DNA of 64,000 nt from assembly GCF_002277955.1 (NCBI RefSeq), contig NZ_CP018477.1, positions 2,997,206 through 3,061,205 on the forward strand. The letters run 5' to 3'. The position numbers and the translations under genes are program-made. Source of the stretch: Thermogutta terrifontis (GTDB lineage: Bacteria; Planctomycetota; Planctomycetia; Pirellulales; Thermoguttaceae). This document shows positions 22,230-30,778 of this stretch, one piece after another; positions within the stretch are counted from its first letter, which is position 1, and the number at the start of each line of letters is the position of its first letter. Below the pieces are notes generated by a model. The model worked only from the letters and a program-made list of their open reading frames with translations. It made no database searches and had not been told where the DNA came from.

Positions 22230-24332
22230 TTAGAACATCTGCAACTGCACCGGGGAATTCTTCTTCCCAGAAATCACTGTCTGCGCTGGTTCTTCGTTTT
22301 CCGGATTGACAATGATGACGGCCCCGTCAAATTCCTCCGGCGTCGGATCGTCACGGACGGGACGTCCATGCTCGTCCAGCTTCAGGTCGGCCTCAGCCGT
22401 CACGCGTTTGGCAACTTCCATGAGGTCTCGATACACTTCGTCACGGTCCACGCCTCTCATCACGGAGACGGCATTCGCCACTTCCTTGAGATAACGGAGA
22501 AAGATGTTCCGTCGTTCGCCCTGCTGACGGACCCGCAGACGTCGTCGCAGGTACATTCCCAGACGTCTGCCAACTGCTTGAAATGCCAGCCGTAATTCTT
22601 TCTGGATTTCCGGATAGGCCGCGATGGCTTCCTTGGACTCGCTGGTGAACGGCACCCATACGCTGGCAAAGTGCACGAGGAGCGTCACCGGGCCCGTCGG
22701 CAGGGAATTGCGAGACTGGCTCAACCCGTAGGGTCGCCAATTCGTGCTCATGACCGTCTGCGTGATGGCACAGGCTCCGGCCTGGAAGAGAAGCGGTACG
22801 CGGTTGGCGTAGCGGAGGACAGTCATGGTTTGTCCCTCCGTGAGGTTAACGCTTTGCAGCGCCTCACAGAGTTGCTGACGCTCCCGGGCCTTGAGTTTGG
22901 CAGGAGACATGCGCGCCTTCAGCCGTGCCTGCTGAAGAATCTTGTCCGCACCCTCGGGACCAATGCCATCGAACGTTGTCGTCAAGAACTGCCGGAGTGT
23001 TCGCGCATCCGTCTCGGCAAGCAGCTCCTCCAGAGTCTCCAGTGAGACGCGGTAAGTGGCGGGCGCTCCACCGTACGCCAGGCCGACTTCCACCTGGAAC
23101 GGATTCCCGCGATACACGGCCGGGGGACGTGTGACGGCCGTGTAAAACTCGCCGGGCACCAGTTGCCGCAGTCCCCGCAGAATGAGCTCCTCTCCAATCG
23201 GTGACAGGCAATCGGTGGCGGGCGATTGAATCTTGGTGGTTTGCAGGGCTTGAAAAAGCGCCTCGGCTTCGTGACGACCGACTCGCCGCGGATTGGCACG
23301 GCTGCTCAGCCCCGCGGTTTCGAGAATTTTTTGGGCAACCGCCGGACTGACCCGTGAGAAAGACTCCGTGAGAAAACCGCTCAAGGTGTTCGCTTTGGTG
23401 TCCTTGAGCATCGTCACCAGCCAGCCCAATTCCACCCCGTAAGGGTGAGGTTTGATTTCTTTGGGCTCGGGTGGCAACTGTTCGGCAACACGCGGGAAAT
23501 CACGAGTTTTTCCCTCGGGGTCCTGGTAGTGAAGCGTCACATGGGGATTAGCTATGGCCGTCTGGAAGAGGTACTCATCGACACTTCCCCGCCCTCGCTG
23601 GTATTTGGCCTCAAGTTCGATGGCCACCAGCGTCCCGTGTTCCACATCATTCCAGGGCAGGCCGAACGGCTGAAGAAACTCACCAATATTCTCGTTCGCC
23701 GGGATATCGACGCCGTCCCCTTTGCCGTTGACGATTTCCGGTCGGTTGTTCTTGGTGTCAATCTGAATTTGATAGAAATGGGCAGGCTTCCTCGGGCCGG
23801 TTTTGGAAACGATGCTCACCGGCTTCCCGGTGGTCAAAAGGCCGTACATCCCGGCCGCACTGATACCGATCCCCTGCTGTCCGCGACTTTGCCGAAGCCG
23901 GTGGAATTTCGAGCCGTAGAGCAGTTTTCCAAAAATGAGGGGTATTTGCTTTTTGACGATGCCTGGCCCGTTATCCTGCACGATAACGCGGTAGCGGCTC
24001 TCTCCGGTGGGATCGATGCGGACCCACACCTCGGGCAGGACGCCGGCCTCTTCGCACGCATCCAGGGCGTTATCCACGGCTTCTTTGACGGCCGTCAACA
24101 GCGCCTTGCGGGGATTGTCGAACCCCAGCAGGTGGCGGTTTTTGGCGAAGAATTCGCTGACGGAGATCTCGCGCTGTTTGGCAGCGAGGCTCTCGGCACT
24201 CACCCGCCGACGCGGTTGGCCGTTTCCACCCACCGCGGACGAAGCCTCGGACTGACCTGCCTGACGCGATTTTTCAATAGTTTGAGGACTCTGCTGGTCT
24301 TGTTTTGCGGTAGAAACTCCCATCGCGATCAC
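22230..24332 (-). CDS. top6B: DNA topoisomerase VI subunit B
   Basis: ATPase subunit of type IIB topoisomerase. The GHKL fold is clear: [10 protein letters not shown] (Glu84, Asn88), DNGPG (120-124) and [12 protein letters not shown] (150-161). [33 protein letters not shown] (in two parts, 396-418) and the ANRVPLLFQ transducer motif follow. Residues 320-368 are the H2TH segment. A second, similar segment lies at 449-497, between LAYGG and [10 protein letters not shown], where archaeal proteins are short. The start is GTG at 24332 or ATG at 24323. No Spo11-like A subunit is next to it, so it is either encoded elsewhere or missing. The enzyme is common in archaea and plants and rare in bacteria. 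Confidence 0.93.
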
Positions 24333-25577: not shown

Positions 25578-27350
25578 TCAGTTCGCTTCGCGCGTGAAAT
25601 AGTGGGTATGGAGCAGGCGGTGAGACATTTCGCCCAACGGTTGTCCCAGGAATTCCGCATAGAGTTGCTGAATCTGCGGGTTCAGATGGGACTTGCGAAT
25701 GGCCTTGTGTTCATCCTCTTTCTTGAGCGCAGCGATTCGGGCAAGGCGAACACGGTGGTCCGTGTAACGGGGCTGACCGCCACCGCCGATGCAGCCGCCG
25801 GGACACGCCATCACCTCCACAAAGTGATATTCCCTCTCCCCCTTCTCGATCGCCCGAATTAACCGTTCCGCATTGGCCAGACCGTGGGCCACAGCAACGC
25901 GGAGGGTGATTCCTTCGAGAAAGCTCCACTCCGGCTTGAGCTGTGTGAGCGGGATCTCGGCCTCCTTGATTCCCTCCAGTCCGGTCAAATTGGGAACGTG
26001 AAGGTCGGGAGTGGGAAGCTCGCGGCCGGTGATCAATTCGTAAACCGTTCGCAAGGCGGCTTCCATGACTCCACCGGTATGTCCGAAAATATCGCCGGCA
26101 CCGCTGGACAGGCCCATTGGAGCGTCCATCTGTTCATCGGGGAGCGAAGCGAAGTCGATACCGGCCACACGGATCATTCTCGCCAGTTCCCGGGTGGTGA
26201 GGACCGCGTCCACGTCACGAGTTCCGCTGGCCGTCATTTCTGGCCGGGCGGCCTCAAACTTCTTGGCCGTGCAGGGCATCACAGAAACGACGAAGATGTC
26301 GTCCGGCCGCTTGCCCAGTTTGTTCGCGTAATACGTTTTGGCCACGGCGCCGAACATCTGTTGCGGCGATTTGCAGGTTGATAGATTCCCCAGAAGTTCG
26401 TGATGGAAAAACTCCATGTACTGGATCCATCCTGGGGAACAACTCGTGAACATGGGAAGTGGCGCATCCGCGCCTTCGACAAACTTTTTCCGCAACCGCG
26501 TGAGAAACTCGGTTCCCTCCTCCATGATGGTGAGATCGGCGGCAAAGTTGGTGTCAAACACCGCATCGAATCCGAGACGCCGCAGGGCCGCCACCATCTT
26601 TCCGGTGACGAGTGTGCCGGGCGGATAGCCAAAGCACTCCCCCAATGCAGCGCGAATGGCAGGAGCCGTCTGCACGATCACGAAGTTATCGGGATTGTCC
26701 AGTGCTGCCCAAACCATTTCCACGTGGTCGCGCTCGGAAATCGCGCCGACCGGGCAGATCGCCGCGCACTGTCCGCATTGCACACAGGCCACCGTGGCAA
26801 GATCCCGCCCCAGCGCGGGACCAATGACGGTGTGAAATCCGCGGAATTGCGGGAAGAGCGCGCCCACATTCTGAATTTCATTGCACACGCTCACACACCG
26901 GCGACACTTGATGCACTTGCCGCTGTCCCGCACGAGAGCCGGCGTTGAGACATCGAGCCGCTTGCGTGCCCGTTCGCCGCGGTAGCTGATCTCCCGAATC
27001 CCCAGCTCGGCGGCAAGAGATTGCAGCTCACAGTTTCCGTTGCGATCGCACGTCTGGCACTCTCCGTTGTGTTCTGAAAGAAGCAACTCCACCACGGCGG
27101 TGCGTGCTCGACGAACCCGCGATGTATTGGTGTAAATGCGCATTCCTTCCCACACCCTGGTGGCGCAAGAAGCCACCAGATTGCGGACTCCCTCCACTTC
27201 CACGACGCAGACGCGGCAAGCCCCGACGGGTTTGAGACTTTCCACGAAACAGAGCGTCGGTATCCGGATTCCGGCCTTCTTGGCGGCGCAAAGGATTGTC
27301 GTGCCTTCCGGCACTTCCATCTCGTGATCGTTGATGGCGATTCGGACCAT
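25578..27350 (-). CDS. hydA: [FeFe]-hydrogenase catalytic subunit
   Basis: About 590-residue H2-activating subunit of a soluble NuoEF-type hydrogenase. Numbered from the ATG at 27350: [2Fe-2S] Cys34/45/48/62; His94 with Cys98/101/107 for an N-terminal [4Fe-4S]; two ferredoxin clusters at Cys146/149/152/156 and 189/192/195/199; H-cluster ligands Cys304 (TSCSPGW), Cys360 (MPCTAKK), Cys516 and Cys520 (ACPGGCIGGGGQP). Ser305 occupies the position that is the proton-transfer Cys in CpI. A longer start at 27425 would abut the preceding gene's stop. No HydE, HydF or HydG maturase is in the window. Confidence 0.94.
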   Translation of the reverse strand: MVRIAINDHEMEVPEGTTILCAAKKAGIRIPTLCFVESLKPVGACRVCVVEVEGVRNLVASCATRVWEGMRIYTNTSRVRRARTAVVELLLSEHNGECQTCDRNGNCELQSLAAELGIREISYRGERARKRLDVSTPALVRDSGKCIKCRRCVSVCNEIQNVGALFPQFRGFHTVIGPALGRDLATVACVQCGQCAAICPVGAISERDHVEMVWAALDNPDNFVIVQTAPAIRAALGECFGYPPGTLVTGKMVAALRRLGFDAVFDTNFAADLTIMEEGTEFLTRLRKKFVEGADAPLPMFTSCSPGWIQYMEFFHHELLGNLSTCKSPQQMFGAVAKTYYANKLGKRPDDIFVVSVMPCTAKKFEAARPEMTASGTRDVDAVLTTRELARMIRVAGIDFASLPDEQMDAPMGLSSGAGDIFGHTGGVMEAALRTVYELITGRELPTPDLHVPNLTGLEGIKEAEIPLTQLKPEWSFLEGITLRVAVAHGLANAERLIRAIEKGEREYHFVEVMACPGGCIGGGGQPRYTDHRVRLARIAALKKEDEHKAIRKSHLNPQIQQLYAEFLGQPLGEMSHRLLHTHYFTREAN

Positions 27351-27425
27351 GGTTGCCGATTTCTGGCTGGTTGCTTCACTCACTGCGCTGGAATGCATGG
27401 CTCGTCCTACCGGAATGCGCCTCAA

Positions 27426-30400
27426 TCAAATTTCGCCTAATTGGTGTAAAACCACCTGATGCATATTGCGTTTCCCATAATCGCACCGCAGGCAGCGCCG
27501 CGCCTGACGGATGGCCACGGGCTCCGGCCAGGGCAGTTCCACTTCGTCGAAGTTGTGGCGACGTCTTTCGACCGGCAGCAGCCGGAGGGGCTCGCGAGGG
27601 GTGGGCTCCGGCTCGGCATCGGGATCAAAGGACGTTTCCACAGGATGGGGTTCCCGCCAGAAAGCGTGGTTTTCTCCTGTGAGGAACATGTCGATCCCCA
27701 CCGCCGCCCGTTCTCCGGCAGCGACAGCCTCCACCACGGACGCCGGTCCCGTCACGGCATCTCCGCCGGCAAAAATCCACCGCTGCGACGTCTGCCCGGT
27801 CACCGGATCCACATCGATGAACCCCCGACTGTTCCTGCGGAGTTCAACATCACCACAAAGGGTATCCAGGTCGAGAGTCTGCCCCACCGCGACGAGAATG
27901 TGATCTGCCGGAATACAGAAGGCTTCACCGGCTTCTTTGGGGCGGCGACGTCCGGAGCGGTCAAACTCACCCAACTGAACGGGAACACACTTGAGGCCCA
28001 CCACGCGTCCCCCTTCGGTGAGGACCTCCACGGGTGCCGTCAGGAGCTGGAGGCGCACGCCCTCGGCCTCGGCCTCCGTGATCTCCTCCTCATAAGCCGG
28101 CATAGCTTCGCGATTTCGCCGATAAACGACCACGACGCTTTCGGCCCCCAGACGGATGGCGGTGCGGGCTGCATCAATCGCGGAGTTGCCCCCGCCAACA
28201 ATCACCACCCGGCGCCCCACAGGCACCGATCCGCGGATGTTGTATGTCCGCAAGAAACTGAGCGCGTCTTCCACGCCCTGGGCATTTTCCCCGGGAATAT
28301 TGAGTTTGGCCCCCTGAGGAGCACCCACGCCCAGAAAGACCGCGTCGTAGCCCTGGGCCCGCAAACTGCTGAGTGTGAAATCTCGGCCGAGGGCCATGCC
28401 CGTGATGATCTCCACCCCCATCTGCTCGATCATGCGGACCTCTCGGGCAACGACCTCCCTGGGCAACCGATAGGCCGGGATGGCCTGGACCAGCATACCG
28501 CCCGGCCGCTGTTCTGCCTCGAAAACCTCCGGTCGGTAGCCCAGTCGGGCCAGAAAATATGCGCAGGTAAGTCCAGCGGGCCCCGCCCCGATGATGGCGA
28601 TTTTTTTCTTAGCATTTTTGGGATTTTCTCGGATTTCCGGAACTTGCAGCGTCACCTCCTGATCGACCATGAACCGTTTGATCGCGCGGATGGCCACCGG
28701 AGCGTCCAATGAGGCACGGCGGCACTTGTCCTCACACGTGTGGAAACACACCCGCGAGCAGACAGCGGCAAAGGGATTCCGTTCGCGATGGAGACGAATC
28801 GCTTCGGCGTAACGCCGCTCGGCCACGAGGGCGACAAAGCCGGGAATATCCACATTGGCAGGGCACGCGCTTTCACAGGGAGCCGCCACCATCGCCGAGC
28901 AAACTCCCGCCCGACAGTGCTTGTCGCGGATATGCTCCACGTACTCCGCGCCAAAGTGCCGAATGGTGGAAAGGACCGGGTTGGACGCCGTCTGCCCCAG
29001 GCCACACAACGATGTTTCTTTGACCATCTCGCCCAGTTCGATGAGGCGTTCCACATCGTCCTCTTGTCCCTGGCCGTTGCAGATCCGCTCCATGATTTCC
29101 AGCATCCGCTTGGTACCCACGCGGCACGGCACGCATTTGCCGCAGGATTCGTCCTGGACAAACTCCAGGAAGTATCGGGCGACATCGACCATACAACTGT
29201 CGTCGTCCATGACGATCAGCCCGCCGGAGCCCATGATGGCCCCGAGTTCCGCCAGGGACTCGTAATCCAGGGGAACGTTCAGATGCTGGCGGGGTACACA
29301 CCCGCCGGAAGGCCCGCCAATCTGCGCGGCCTTGAACGGCTTGCCGGAGGCCGTGCCGCCGCCGATGTCGTAGATCAAATCCCCAAGCGGCATGCCGATC
29401 GGGACTTCCACGAGGCCCGCATGTTTGATCCCACCGGCCAGGGCGAACACTTTCGTGCCGCGGCTTTTTGGCGTACCCCACTGCGCGTACCACTCACCTC
29501 CGCGGAGCACAATCACGGGGATATTGGCCAGTGTTTCCACGTTGTTCAGCACGGTGGGATGGTCCCACAGACCTTTTTCCACGGGAAACGGCGGCCGGGG
29601 ACGCGGCTCTCCCCGATTACCCTCGATCGAGGTCAAAAGAGCGGTTTCTTCCCCGCATACAAAAGCCCCCGAACCCATGCGGATTTCGATGTCGAAGTCA
29701 AAGCCCAAACCCAGAATGTTCTTGCCCAGCAGGCCCGCTTCTCTGGCCTGCGCGATGGCGATTTGAAGGCGTTCCACGGCCAGGGGATATTCCGCCCGCA
29801 CGTAAACAAAGCCCCGGGACGCCCCGATCGTCGCGGCAGCAATGGCGATCCCCTCGATGACACTGTGGGGATCACCTTCCAGGACACTGCGATCCATGAA
29901 GGCCCCGGGATCTCCCTCGTCGGCATTGCAGACCACATATTTGATGGGGTCCGCCTGTCGCCGGGCCGCATCCCATTTTCTCCAGGTGGGAAACCCGGCC
30001 CCTCCCCGACCGCGAAGCCCGGACTGTCGCAACGTCTCGATCACCTCGTCGGGATTCCGGTGCTGAAGCACTTTCGCCAGCGCCTGGTATCCGTCCCGCT
30101 CGATGTAGTCTTCAATCCGCGTGGGATCGATCTCCCCGCAGTTGCGAAGGACGATTTTTACCTGCCGTTTGAAGAAATCGATCTCCTCCATTCGCGCCAC
30201 GTGCCTGCCATCCGGCCGACGATGCGTGAGGCGCTCGACAATCTTTCCCTGCAGGAAATGCTCGCGAACAAGCTGGGCGGTGTCTTCCGGACGAACGTGC
30301 TCGTAAACAATATCCTCAACCATCAGAACGGGTCCGCCAAAACAAGGCCCCATGCAGCCCGTCCCGATGATCCGCCACTGTTCGCCGATCCCCATTTCCG

Positions 30401-30581
30401 CAAGGTTCTGCTCGAGAGCTTCTTTTGTGCGGAGTGATCCAGAGGCGATGCAACCGGCGCCAGTGCAGATACGAACTTCCCGACCCCCGTTCTGTTGCCA
30501 GGAACTGCGTTGTGTCCGAAGCTCGTCACGCCACTGGGTGAGCTGTTCAACACTTGTGATCCGTGGCCGGTTCATAGGCAT
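27426..30581 (-). CDS. Hydrogenase NuoF-like subunit fused to GltD-like FAD/NAD(P) module
   Basis: About 1051 residues. From the ATG at 30581: Cys39/44/76/80 form a thioredoxin-like [2Fe-2S] domain. Residues 130-545 are NuoF, with GLRGRGGAGF (188-197) and NADEGDPGAF for FMN/NADH, then ESCGKCVPC plus Cys526 for a [4Fe-4S]. A GltD-type Cys-rich linker spans about 556-635. AIIGAGPAGLTCAY (662-675) binds FAD, and VIVGGGNSAIDAA (793-805) with VVYRRNRE suggests NAD(P)H. The C-terminus carries CLRC. It would pass electrons between HydA and pyridine nucleotides. AGG lies before the start. The fused GltD part is the unusual feature. Confidence 0.9.
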   Translation of the reverse strand: MPMNRPRITSVEQLTQWRDELRTQRSSWQQNGGREVRICTGAGCIASGSLRTKEALEQNLAEMGIGEQWRIIGTGCMGPCFGGPVLMVEDIVYEHVRPEDTAQLVREHFLQGKIVERLTHRRPDGRHVARMEEIDFFKRQVKIVLRNCGEIDPTRIEDYIERDGYQALAKVLQHRNPDEVIETLRQSGLRGRGGAGFPTWRKWDAARRQADPIKYVVCNADEGDPGAFMDRSVLEGDPHSVIEGIAIAAATIGASRGFVYVRAEYPLAVERLQIAIAQAREAGLLGKNILGLGFDFDIEIRMGSGAFVCGEETALLTSIEGNRGEPRPRPPFPVEKGLWDHPTVLNNVETLANIPVIVLRGGEWYAQWGTPKSRGTKVFALAGGIKHAGLVEVPIGMPLGDLIYDIGGGTASGKPFKAAQIGGPSGGCVPRQHLNVPLDYESLAELGAIMGSGGLIVMDDDSCMVDVARYFLEFVQDESCGKCVPCRVGTKRMLEIMERICNGQGQEDDVERLIELGEMVKETSLCGLGQTASNPVLSTIRHFGAEYVEHIRDKHCRAGVCSAMVAAPCESACPANVDIPGFVALVAERRYAEAIRLHRERNPFAAVCSRVCFHTCEDKCRRASLDAPVAIRAIKRFMVDQEVTLQVPEIRENPKNAKKKIAIIGAGPAGLTCAYFLARLGYRPEVFEAEQRPGGMLVQAIPAYRLPREVVAREVRMIEQMGVEIITGMALGRDFTLSSLRAQGYDAVFLGVGAPQGAKLNIPGENAQGVEDALSFLRTYNIRGSVPVGRRVVIVGGGNSAIDAARTAIRLGAESVVVVYRRNREAMPAYEEEITEAEAEGVRLQLLTAPVEVLTEGGRVVGLKCVPVQLGEFDRSGRRRPKEAGEAFCIPADHILVAVGQTLDLDTLCGDVELRRNSRGFIDVDPVTGQTSQRWIFAGGDAVTGPASVVEAVAAGERAAVGIDMFLTGENHAFWREPHPVETSFDPDAEPEPTPREPLRLLPVERRRHNFDEVELPWPEPVAIRQARRCLRCDYGKRNMHQVVLHQLGEI

Positions 30582-30778
30582 GTAACCTGTTGGTGGCTTG
30601 TCCAAGACCGAAATTACAAAAGCCAAGACTCCGATACTTCGCGAAATTCCCTCATGATGTGGTGTCCGTCAGGAAAGCGCTTCCAGTCGAGAGCCACGAA
30701 AACGAAACACGATCTTCGCCGCTTTTTTCTCTCGTGGATTCTCCTGAAGTCCCAGAACCTCCACGGAAGCGGAAATGG

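Follow-up and report, generated by a model that had tools for sequence, protein, structure and literature searches.

A probable second H2TH domain, diverged from the enzyme's own, in the transducer of Thermogutta terrifontis topoisomerase VI subunit B

Topoisomerase VI subunit B and its transducer insert

How a type II topoisomerase detects a second duplex in its cavity before spending ATP is not fully understood. The closest described relatives of the enzyme examined here are the archaeal topoisomerase VI B subunits (Top6B) of M. mazei (2q2e/9o0g) and S. shibatae (1mu5/2zbk), in which, as in Pirellulales, a GHKL ATPase domain, an H2TH domain, and a transducer follow each other in that order. 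The M. mazei H2TH contacts DNA through R263, K268, and K308, according to the accessible text of PMC5922973 and PMC13040014. In the former, crossing sensing is assigned to a KGRR loop in the cavity, the H2TH bending and gripping the G-segment; the closed cavity is seemingly too small for DNA, and strain on, or engagement of, the T-segment was proposed to aid gate opening (PMC5922973). Among planctomycetes, the AlphaFold model of P. staleyi Top6B was described as having an "alpha-helical bundle" projecting into the central cavity, which the accessible part of that paper names neither an H2TH nor a duplicate (PMC11302465, NAR Genom Bioinform 2024). No title or abstract opening in the open literature surveyed gave the element either name, and "second H2TH" did not occur as a phrase in the open-access papers searched. 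Very probably, going by the accessible text of PMC11302465, the P. staleyi bundle is the same element as the insert described below. The present analysis would give an identity, that of a reworked H2TH copy, to a helical bundle already in print.

The window, a 64,000-nucleotide stretch of T. terrifontis DNA, contains a Top6B gene with the following features (positions are those of the window).

22230..24332, minus strand: Top6B (type IIB topoisomerase VI, subunit B), 700 amino acids, GTG start as listed
23802..24107, minus strand: GHKL ATPase domain, residues 76-177 (Pfam HATPase_c stretch)
23214..23450, minus strand: H1, the canonical H2TH segment, residues 295-373, probable source copy of the insert
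23229-23375, minus strand: core of H1, residues 320-368
22815..23066, minus strand: H2, the 84-residue insert in the transducer, residues 423-506, almost certainly a second H2TH
22842-22988, minus strand: core of H2, residues 449-497
22959..22967, minus strand: hairpin of H2, Gly456-Ile457-Gly458, as read from the codons (H1 equivalent, Arg327-Val328-Ser329)
22845..22847, minus strand: Asn496 of H2, counterpart of H1 Lys367 and of M. mazei K308, which touches DNA
22518..22814, minus strand: remainder of the transducer past the insert, residues 507-605 (the Pfam Topo-VIb_trans stretch is 498-605)

The protein was recognized as topoisomerase VI B by its GHKL, H2TH, and transducer succession, aligned along the length of archaeal Top6B. 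M. mazei Top6B shared 44-45% identity with the T. terrifontis Top6B model over 487-504 aligned residues, and residues 46-422 and 496-624 aligned with M. mazei residues 6-363 and 364-492. The insert follows the "...VEVGLAYGG" of the transducer, in agreement with the initial annotation, which had placed a second H2TH copy there, after LAYGG, at a point where the archaeal protein is short. The latter held for the two solved species: M. mazei and S. shibatae align on both sides of the insert, have nothing comparable to it, and have a short turn in place of the 84 residues, their H2TH being single. A Top6A partner is present in the genome (PF04406 match at C1:3733941-3734147, E 3.6e-16, in a 389-residue frame). 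It lies about 0.7 Mb away from Top6B on the T. terrifontis chromosome; hence, the two subunits are not encoded in a common operon here.

Similarity, predicted fold, and distribution of the insert

The initial annotation had proposed a duplicated H2TH on the basis of a 49-residue ungapped alignment with about 18 identities. Over H1 residues 320-368 and H2 residues 449-497, the count was exactly 18 identities, with 29 positives. The similarity extends to 79 ungapped columns (295-373 against 424-502), or almost all of 423-506, indicating that the entire H2TH segment was copied, including the helix that precedes the H2TH. Within the rest of Top6B, the segment that aligned best locally with the insert was H1, with a Smith-Waterman score of 118 against a maximum of 52 among 2000 shuffles of the insert, and z was at least 8.4 in 125/125 locus rows with both copies parsed (the locus rows hold repeats of the same gene, with 104 distinct proteins among 130 rows). 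The insert profile, run against the T. terrifontis genome at E<=10, picked out just two segments, namely H2 (136 bits) and H1 (47.6 bits, E 7e-12). Against PDB sequences, the profile, built from 35 inserts, placed archaeal Top6B at the top (E 9.6e-8 to 1e-4), followed by uS13 (0.018) and Fpg (0.24). Profile, Pfam, and pairwise comparisons thus agreed in relating the insert to H2TH domains, and residues 423-506 are almost certainly a second H2TH domain.

The AlphaFold2 model spanning residues 44-690 has a mean pLDDT of 84.2, and in it each of the four H1 helices begins 129 model positions before its H2 counterpart (259/388, 274/403, 287/416, and 310/439). Predicted alone, the insert had a mean pLDDT of 83.5, and in a Foldseek search of this model against the PDB the top 14 rows were all Top6B, with a best E of 1.3e-4 and an rmsd of 1.4-2.1 across 70-72 columns. 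After these, at E 0.08 or weaker, came TFB1M, Fpg, NEMF, and ribosomal chains (S13, judging by the chain names). VIA-align of the insert gave Z 13.4 and rmsd 3.1 over 82 residues with the M. mazei H2TH (9o0g_B 237-318), compared with Z 8.5 for NEMF and 8.3 for MutM. The insert is therefore predicted to adopt the H2TH fold, with the H2TH of Top6B as its best match, in support of the annotated duplication. Top6B structures were part of AlphaFold training, so the predicted fold depends in part on homology; the sequence tests are independent of this. Both segments being short and helical, a chance resemblance or an artefact might be suspected, but the shuffles and row-wise z scores refute it for T. 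terrifontis Top6B, and the constant helix register and the fold match to the Top6B H2TH leave it a negligible probability. For ribosomal uS13, the sequence and fold matches to the insert were weak, and kinship beyond the fold class is unsupported.

Within Pirellulales, a Top6B match was obtained in 179/197 genomes and H2 in 174/197 at E<=1e-20. Loss of H2 in the remaining 5 of the 179 was considered and ruled out: a contig end cuts the gene in all five, with the edge of the insert visible in two. Outside the order, H2 was found in 0/380 sampled genomes of the phylum. In a phylum-wide set of 392 genomes, matches of the H2 type (>=127 bits) occurred in 11, all of them Pirellulales, out of 12 Pirellulales sampled, the twelfth being without a Top6B match; the best match below the H2 type reached 54 bits, within the range of Top6B H1. 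A scan of public genomes with a single peptide pattern, which more diverged inserts could escape, returned 135 relatives, the best 80 of the 135 being labelled as planctomycetes, except for two labelled only "bacterium". The insert was also present in a Pirellula sp. locus and a Blastopirellula marina locus.

The linker between the two transducer strands was compared across 170 loci, of which 159 had Top6B; its length was parsed in 154, and the other 5 also have the insert. By script count, it measured 85-86 in 130 Pirellulales rows and 12-65 in 24 other planctomycetes (12-13 in 17/24, 36-65 in 7/24). The longer linkers outside Pirellulales, in those that were read, were unrelated in sequence to the insert; at two such loci (L007 and L008), the insert appeared from the alignment to be present, and this was rejected because the linker is charged and unrelated. 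The comparison with archaeal Top6B, represented by the two solved species, and with other planctomycetes thus gave a short or unrelated linker at the insert site, as the initial annotation had supposed for archaea. The structure-based alignment comprised 46 rows, namely T. terrifontis and 45/59 loci; a locus of the same gene (L001), two partial proteins (L012 and L013), and eleven others were left out. As part of the overall explanation set out below, which is given an even chance as a whole, the insert would have been kept since the ancestor of Pirellulales in a turn that joins two strands of the transducer. Since the enzyme also occurs without H2, in other planctomycetes, nature provides a with/without pair (84 residues against an 11-residue linker).

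Two further observations concern these loci. The transducer turn between AYG and RFANRVP accepts other insertions in planctomycetes, and the Top6B matches of three draft genomes (L037, L040, and L058) contain one in-frame stop apiece.

Origin of the second copy

On the similarity searches, duplication of Top6B's own H2TH is favoured over capture from elsewhere, and H2 probably arose in this way. Capture from another H2TH protein, of the MutM/Fpg, NFACT, or S13 type, is unlikely, although several results pointed towards it. Pfam NFACT_N matched 35/35 inserts scanned, with a best value of 4.2e-7. With a MutM profile, median bits were higher for H2 (25.7) than for archaeal H1 (21.2) or Pirellulales H1 (11.8). 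A tree rooted on MutM-like rows set H2 outside all Top6B H1 rows, including the archaeal ones (83/92), a placement that carries a long-branch warning. Against capture, the insert profile favoured Top6B by a wide margin in the PDB sequences, in the fold, and in the T. terrifontis genome itself, and hhalign gave 9.2e-18 for H2 with H1 against 4.9e-12 for H2 with MutM, values that are pairwise and not mutually calibrated.

Among the NFACT_N matches listed in 31 Pirellulales genomes, none went beyond model positions 152-250; some lay in H1 or H2, others in different frames. Those other frames were mostly about 300 residues long, and a MutM-like GIGN hairpin was seen by eye in 9/10 of those fetched; these rows are labelled MutM on account of that motif and of their NFACT_N/H2TH match. 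Since H1, H2, and MutM-like frames are all matched, the model recognizes H2TH domains generally. For the T. terrifontis insert, the match covered positions 174-239 of 456 (66 positions) at 25.8 bits against a cut-off of 31, so that the insert does not qualify as NFACT/RqcH. The identity suggested by the Pfam name was thus rejected: only the H2TH part of the model was matched, H1 was matched as well as H2, and the insert alone fell below the cut-off. No RqcH chain was returned by the insert-profile search of PDB sequences at E<=10, a result not counted as evidence. On Top6B frames, where neighbouring matches are summed, NFACT_N exceeded its cut-off in 16/31 Pirellulales genomes, which constitutes an annotation pitfall. 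MutM/Fpg shares the fold of the insert (Z about 8), and a GIG-type hairpin is common to H2 and nine of the MutM-like Pirellulales rows; its sequence match was weaker than that of the Top6B H2TH, however, and the glycosylase context is absent around the insert.

The MutM-rooted tree comprised random draws of 22 H2 rows, 22 Pirellulales H1 rows, and 18 other H1 rows, together with two archaeal and two T. terrifontis rows and 9/10 MutM-like rows, the tenth (L081) having been left out for its wrong frame. In an unrooted tree from which the MutM-like rows were removed, along with S. shibatae and an odd row (the H1 of L165), H2 formed one clade (100/100) and the Pirellulales H1 rows lay on one side of a branch (93/97). 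A topology joining H2 to the Pirellulales H1 stem was not rejected in the tree without MutM-like rows (p-AU 0.331). Column by column, H2 was about equally like Pirellulales H1 (summed match 20.6) and the H1 of other planctomycetes (19.3), having 319 Gln and 345 Arg in common with the former and 315 Arg and 348 Pro with the latter. The domain is short, and a dated tree of the duplication is accordingly beyond its reach.

Divergence and possible function of H2

By alignment, R263, K268, and K308 of M. mazei correspond to residues 322, 327, and 367 of H1 and 451, 456, and 496 of H2. Among distinct Pirellulales sequences, the K268 counterpart was basic in 96/96 H1 and 0/101 H2, and that of K308 in 93/96 H1 and 0/101 H2. 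At both positions, the insert therefore lacks the basic residues of a Top6B-type DNA-contacting H2TH. It also lacks a basic residue at the R263 position (7/123 H1 rows, 0/130 H2 rows, with the same gene counted more than once), a position that is seldom basic in H1 too and so does not discriminate between the copies. Mean net charge was +4.6 for H1 and -0.05 for H2, in rows that include same-gene repeats. The initial annotation had suggested that a second DNA-binding H2TH could alter how the enzyme senses DNA crossings; with the K268 and K308 counterparts never basic and H2 net neutral, this found no support. Furthermore, since crossings are sensed by the KGRR loop and the H2TH grips the bent G-segment, the analogy with the H2TH does not transfer directly to crossing sensing.

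The two copies appeared to be under comparable constraint, though for a role of H2 other than that of H1: across 2000 sampled pairs of rows, identity averaged 0.555 for H2 and 0.562 for H1. A near-invariant D-x-R-x-x-R-Q-F stretch was present in H2, with Arg444 and Arg447 each in 101/101 and Asp442 in 100/101. Of the distinct sequences, 96/101 H2 and 0/96 H1 contained a helix-hairpin-helix-type Gly-hydrophobic-Gly hairpin. Such a hairpin is the feature with which helix-hairpin-helix and H2TH proteins meet phosphates. Pfam HHH_5 was listed for 9/35 inserts, and the T. terrifontis insert scored 15.3 bits against a cut-off of 27. As judged from sequence, contact of H2 with the DNA backbone through this hairpin is possible. 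The same residues allow the opposite: with a net charge of about zero and non-basic K268 and K308 positions, H2 may not touch DNA at all.

The explanation that best accounts for the data overall, to which an even chance is given, is that a duplicate of the enzyme's own H2TH was placed in the transducer and kept across the order, that the two copies divided their roles, and that H2 makes contact with the T-segment. After the duplication, H1 would have continued to hold the arm of the bent G-segment with its basic residues, whereas H2 would have lost these and gained the Gly-hydrophobic-Gly hairpin and the invariant D-x-R-x-x-R face. Located as in the P. staleyi AlphaFold model, H2 would project into the central cavity and narrow the chamber, and its hairpin would touch the backbone of a captured T-segment. 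Occupancy by the T-segment could then be felt directly by the transducer strand that carries H2, and the signal could be passed from that strand to ATP hydrolysis and gate opening. The duplication, the predicted fold, the distribution, and the residue swap come from the present analysis, and the cavity location is taken from the accessible text of PMC11302465. That H2 in the cavity narrows the chamber, touches the T-segment backbone, and signals to ATP hydrolysis and the gate is put at a little short of an even chance. Contact with the T-segment in the cavity is thus the preferred, though unproven, function of H2; the DNA contact and the coupling are both inferred.

A structural strut on the transducer, or a dimer-contact pad fine-tuning how the B dimer closes, in either case with no contact to DNA, is a possible but less probable alternative. 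As a strut, H2 would pack its invariant Asp442, Arg444, and Arg447 face against the sheet or the partner subunit. The near-zero charge of H2 and the loss of both basic DNA-contact positions make such a role almost as likely as contact with the T-segment, and the D-x-R-x-x-R-Q-F stretch could well be a protein interface. It is the hairpin, present in nearly all H2 and in no H1 sequences, that tells against it, since a purely structural element would not have needed to acquire one. A second clamp on the G-segment, acting like H1, is improbable: H1 and H2 have their fold, family, and enzyme in common, but the K268 and K308 counterparts, basic throughout or nearly so in H1, were basic in none of the 101 H2 sequences, and the reported location of the bundle faces the cavity and not the outer path of the G-segment (accessible text of PMC11302465 and PMC13040014).

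For T-segment contact, the preferred function, a more specific proposal may tentatively be made, although it is doubtful at present: the duplicated H2TH would be divided between DNA segments, the old copy gripping the bent G-segment outside and the new one, fitted with a backbone-binding hairpin and joined to a transducer strand, feeling the T-segment in the cavity. If this is true, duplication of a domain would have yielded a T-segment sensor in its own right, among lineages that use topoisomerase VI in place of topoisomerase IV. Irrespective of its exact role, the duplicate of a domain known to handle DNA is located on the transducer, the relay from ATP to gate, and was retained across a whole bacterial order.

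The genomic context bears on whether the H2-bearing enzyme is at work in the cell. Two matches to PF00521 (GyrA/ParC family) were found in 14 of the 18 Pirellulales genomes (of 197) without a Top6B match, the best of the two at full strength and the second spanning most of the model in the eight of these 14 that were checked and in genome G423; the other 4 have one match and are drafts from genera whose other members have Top6B. Among the 179 Top6B-bearing genomes, 173 had one PF00521 match, 2 had none, and 4 had two. In these 4, the best E-values were much weaker (1.1e-101, 2.5e-93, 1.9e-72, and 8.0e-70), and the pairs look like one gene split between contigs. The GyrA-family gene of T. terrifontis is located as follows.

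C1:3791494-3792900: GyrA-family gene

Topoisomerase VI and a second type IIA (GyrA/ParC-family) enzyme thus seem to replace or exclude each other within Pirellulales, and topoisomerase IV was reported to be missing from the families to which T. terrifontis and P. staleyi belong (PMC11302465). This exchange, together with the reported absence, suggests that the H2-bearing topoisomerase VI is probably a working decatenase.

Residues 246-249 of T. terrifontis Top6B are RGRG where M. mazei has the KGRR crossing-sensor loop, with one basic residue fewer, and RGRG replaces KGRR in T. terrifontis and in at least 104/130 Pirellulales rows. Elsewhere in the window, two neighbouring minus-strand open reading frames at 25578-27425 and 27426-30626 encode 615 and 1066 residues, respectively. 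Judged by eye from the translations, the former resembles a [FeFe]-hydrogenase-type subunit and the latter a fusion of a NuoF-like protein with a glutamate-synthase-type flavoprotein.
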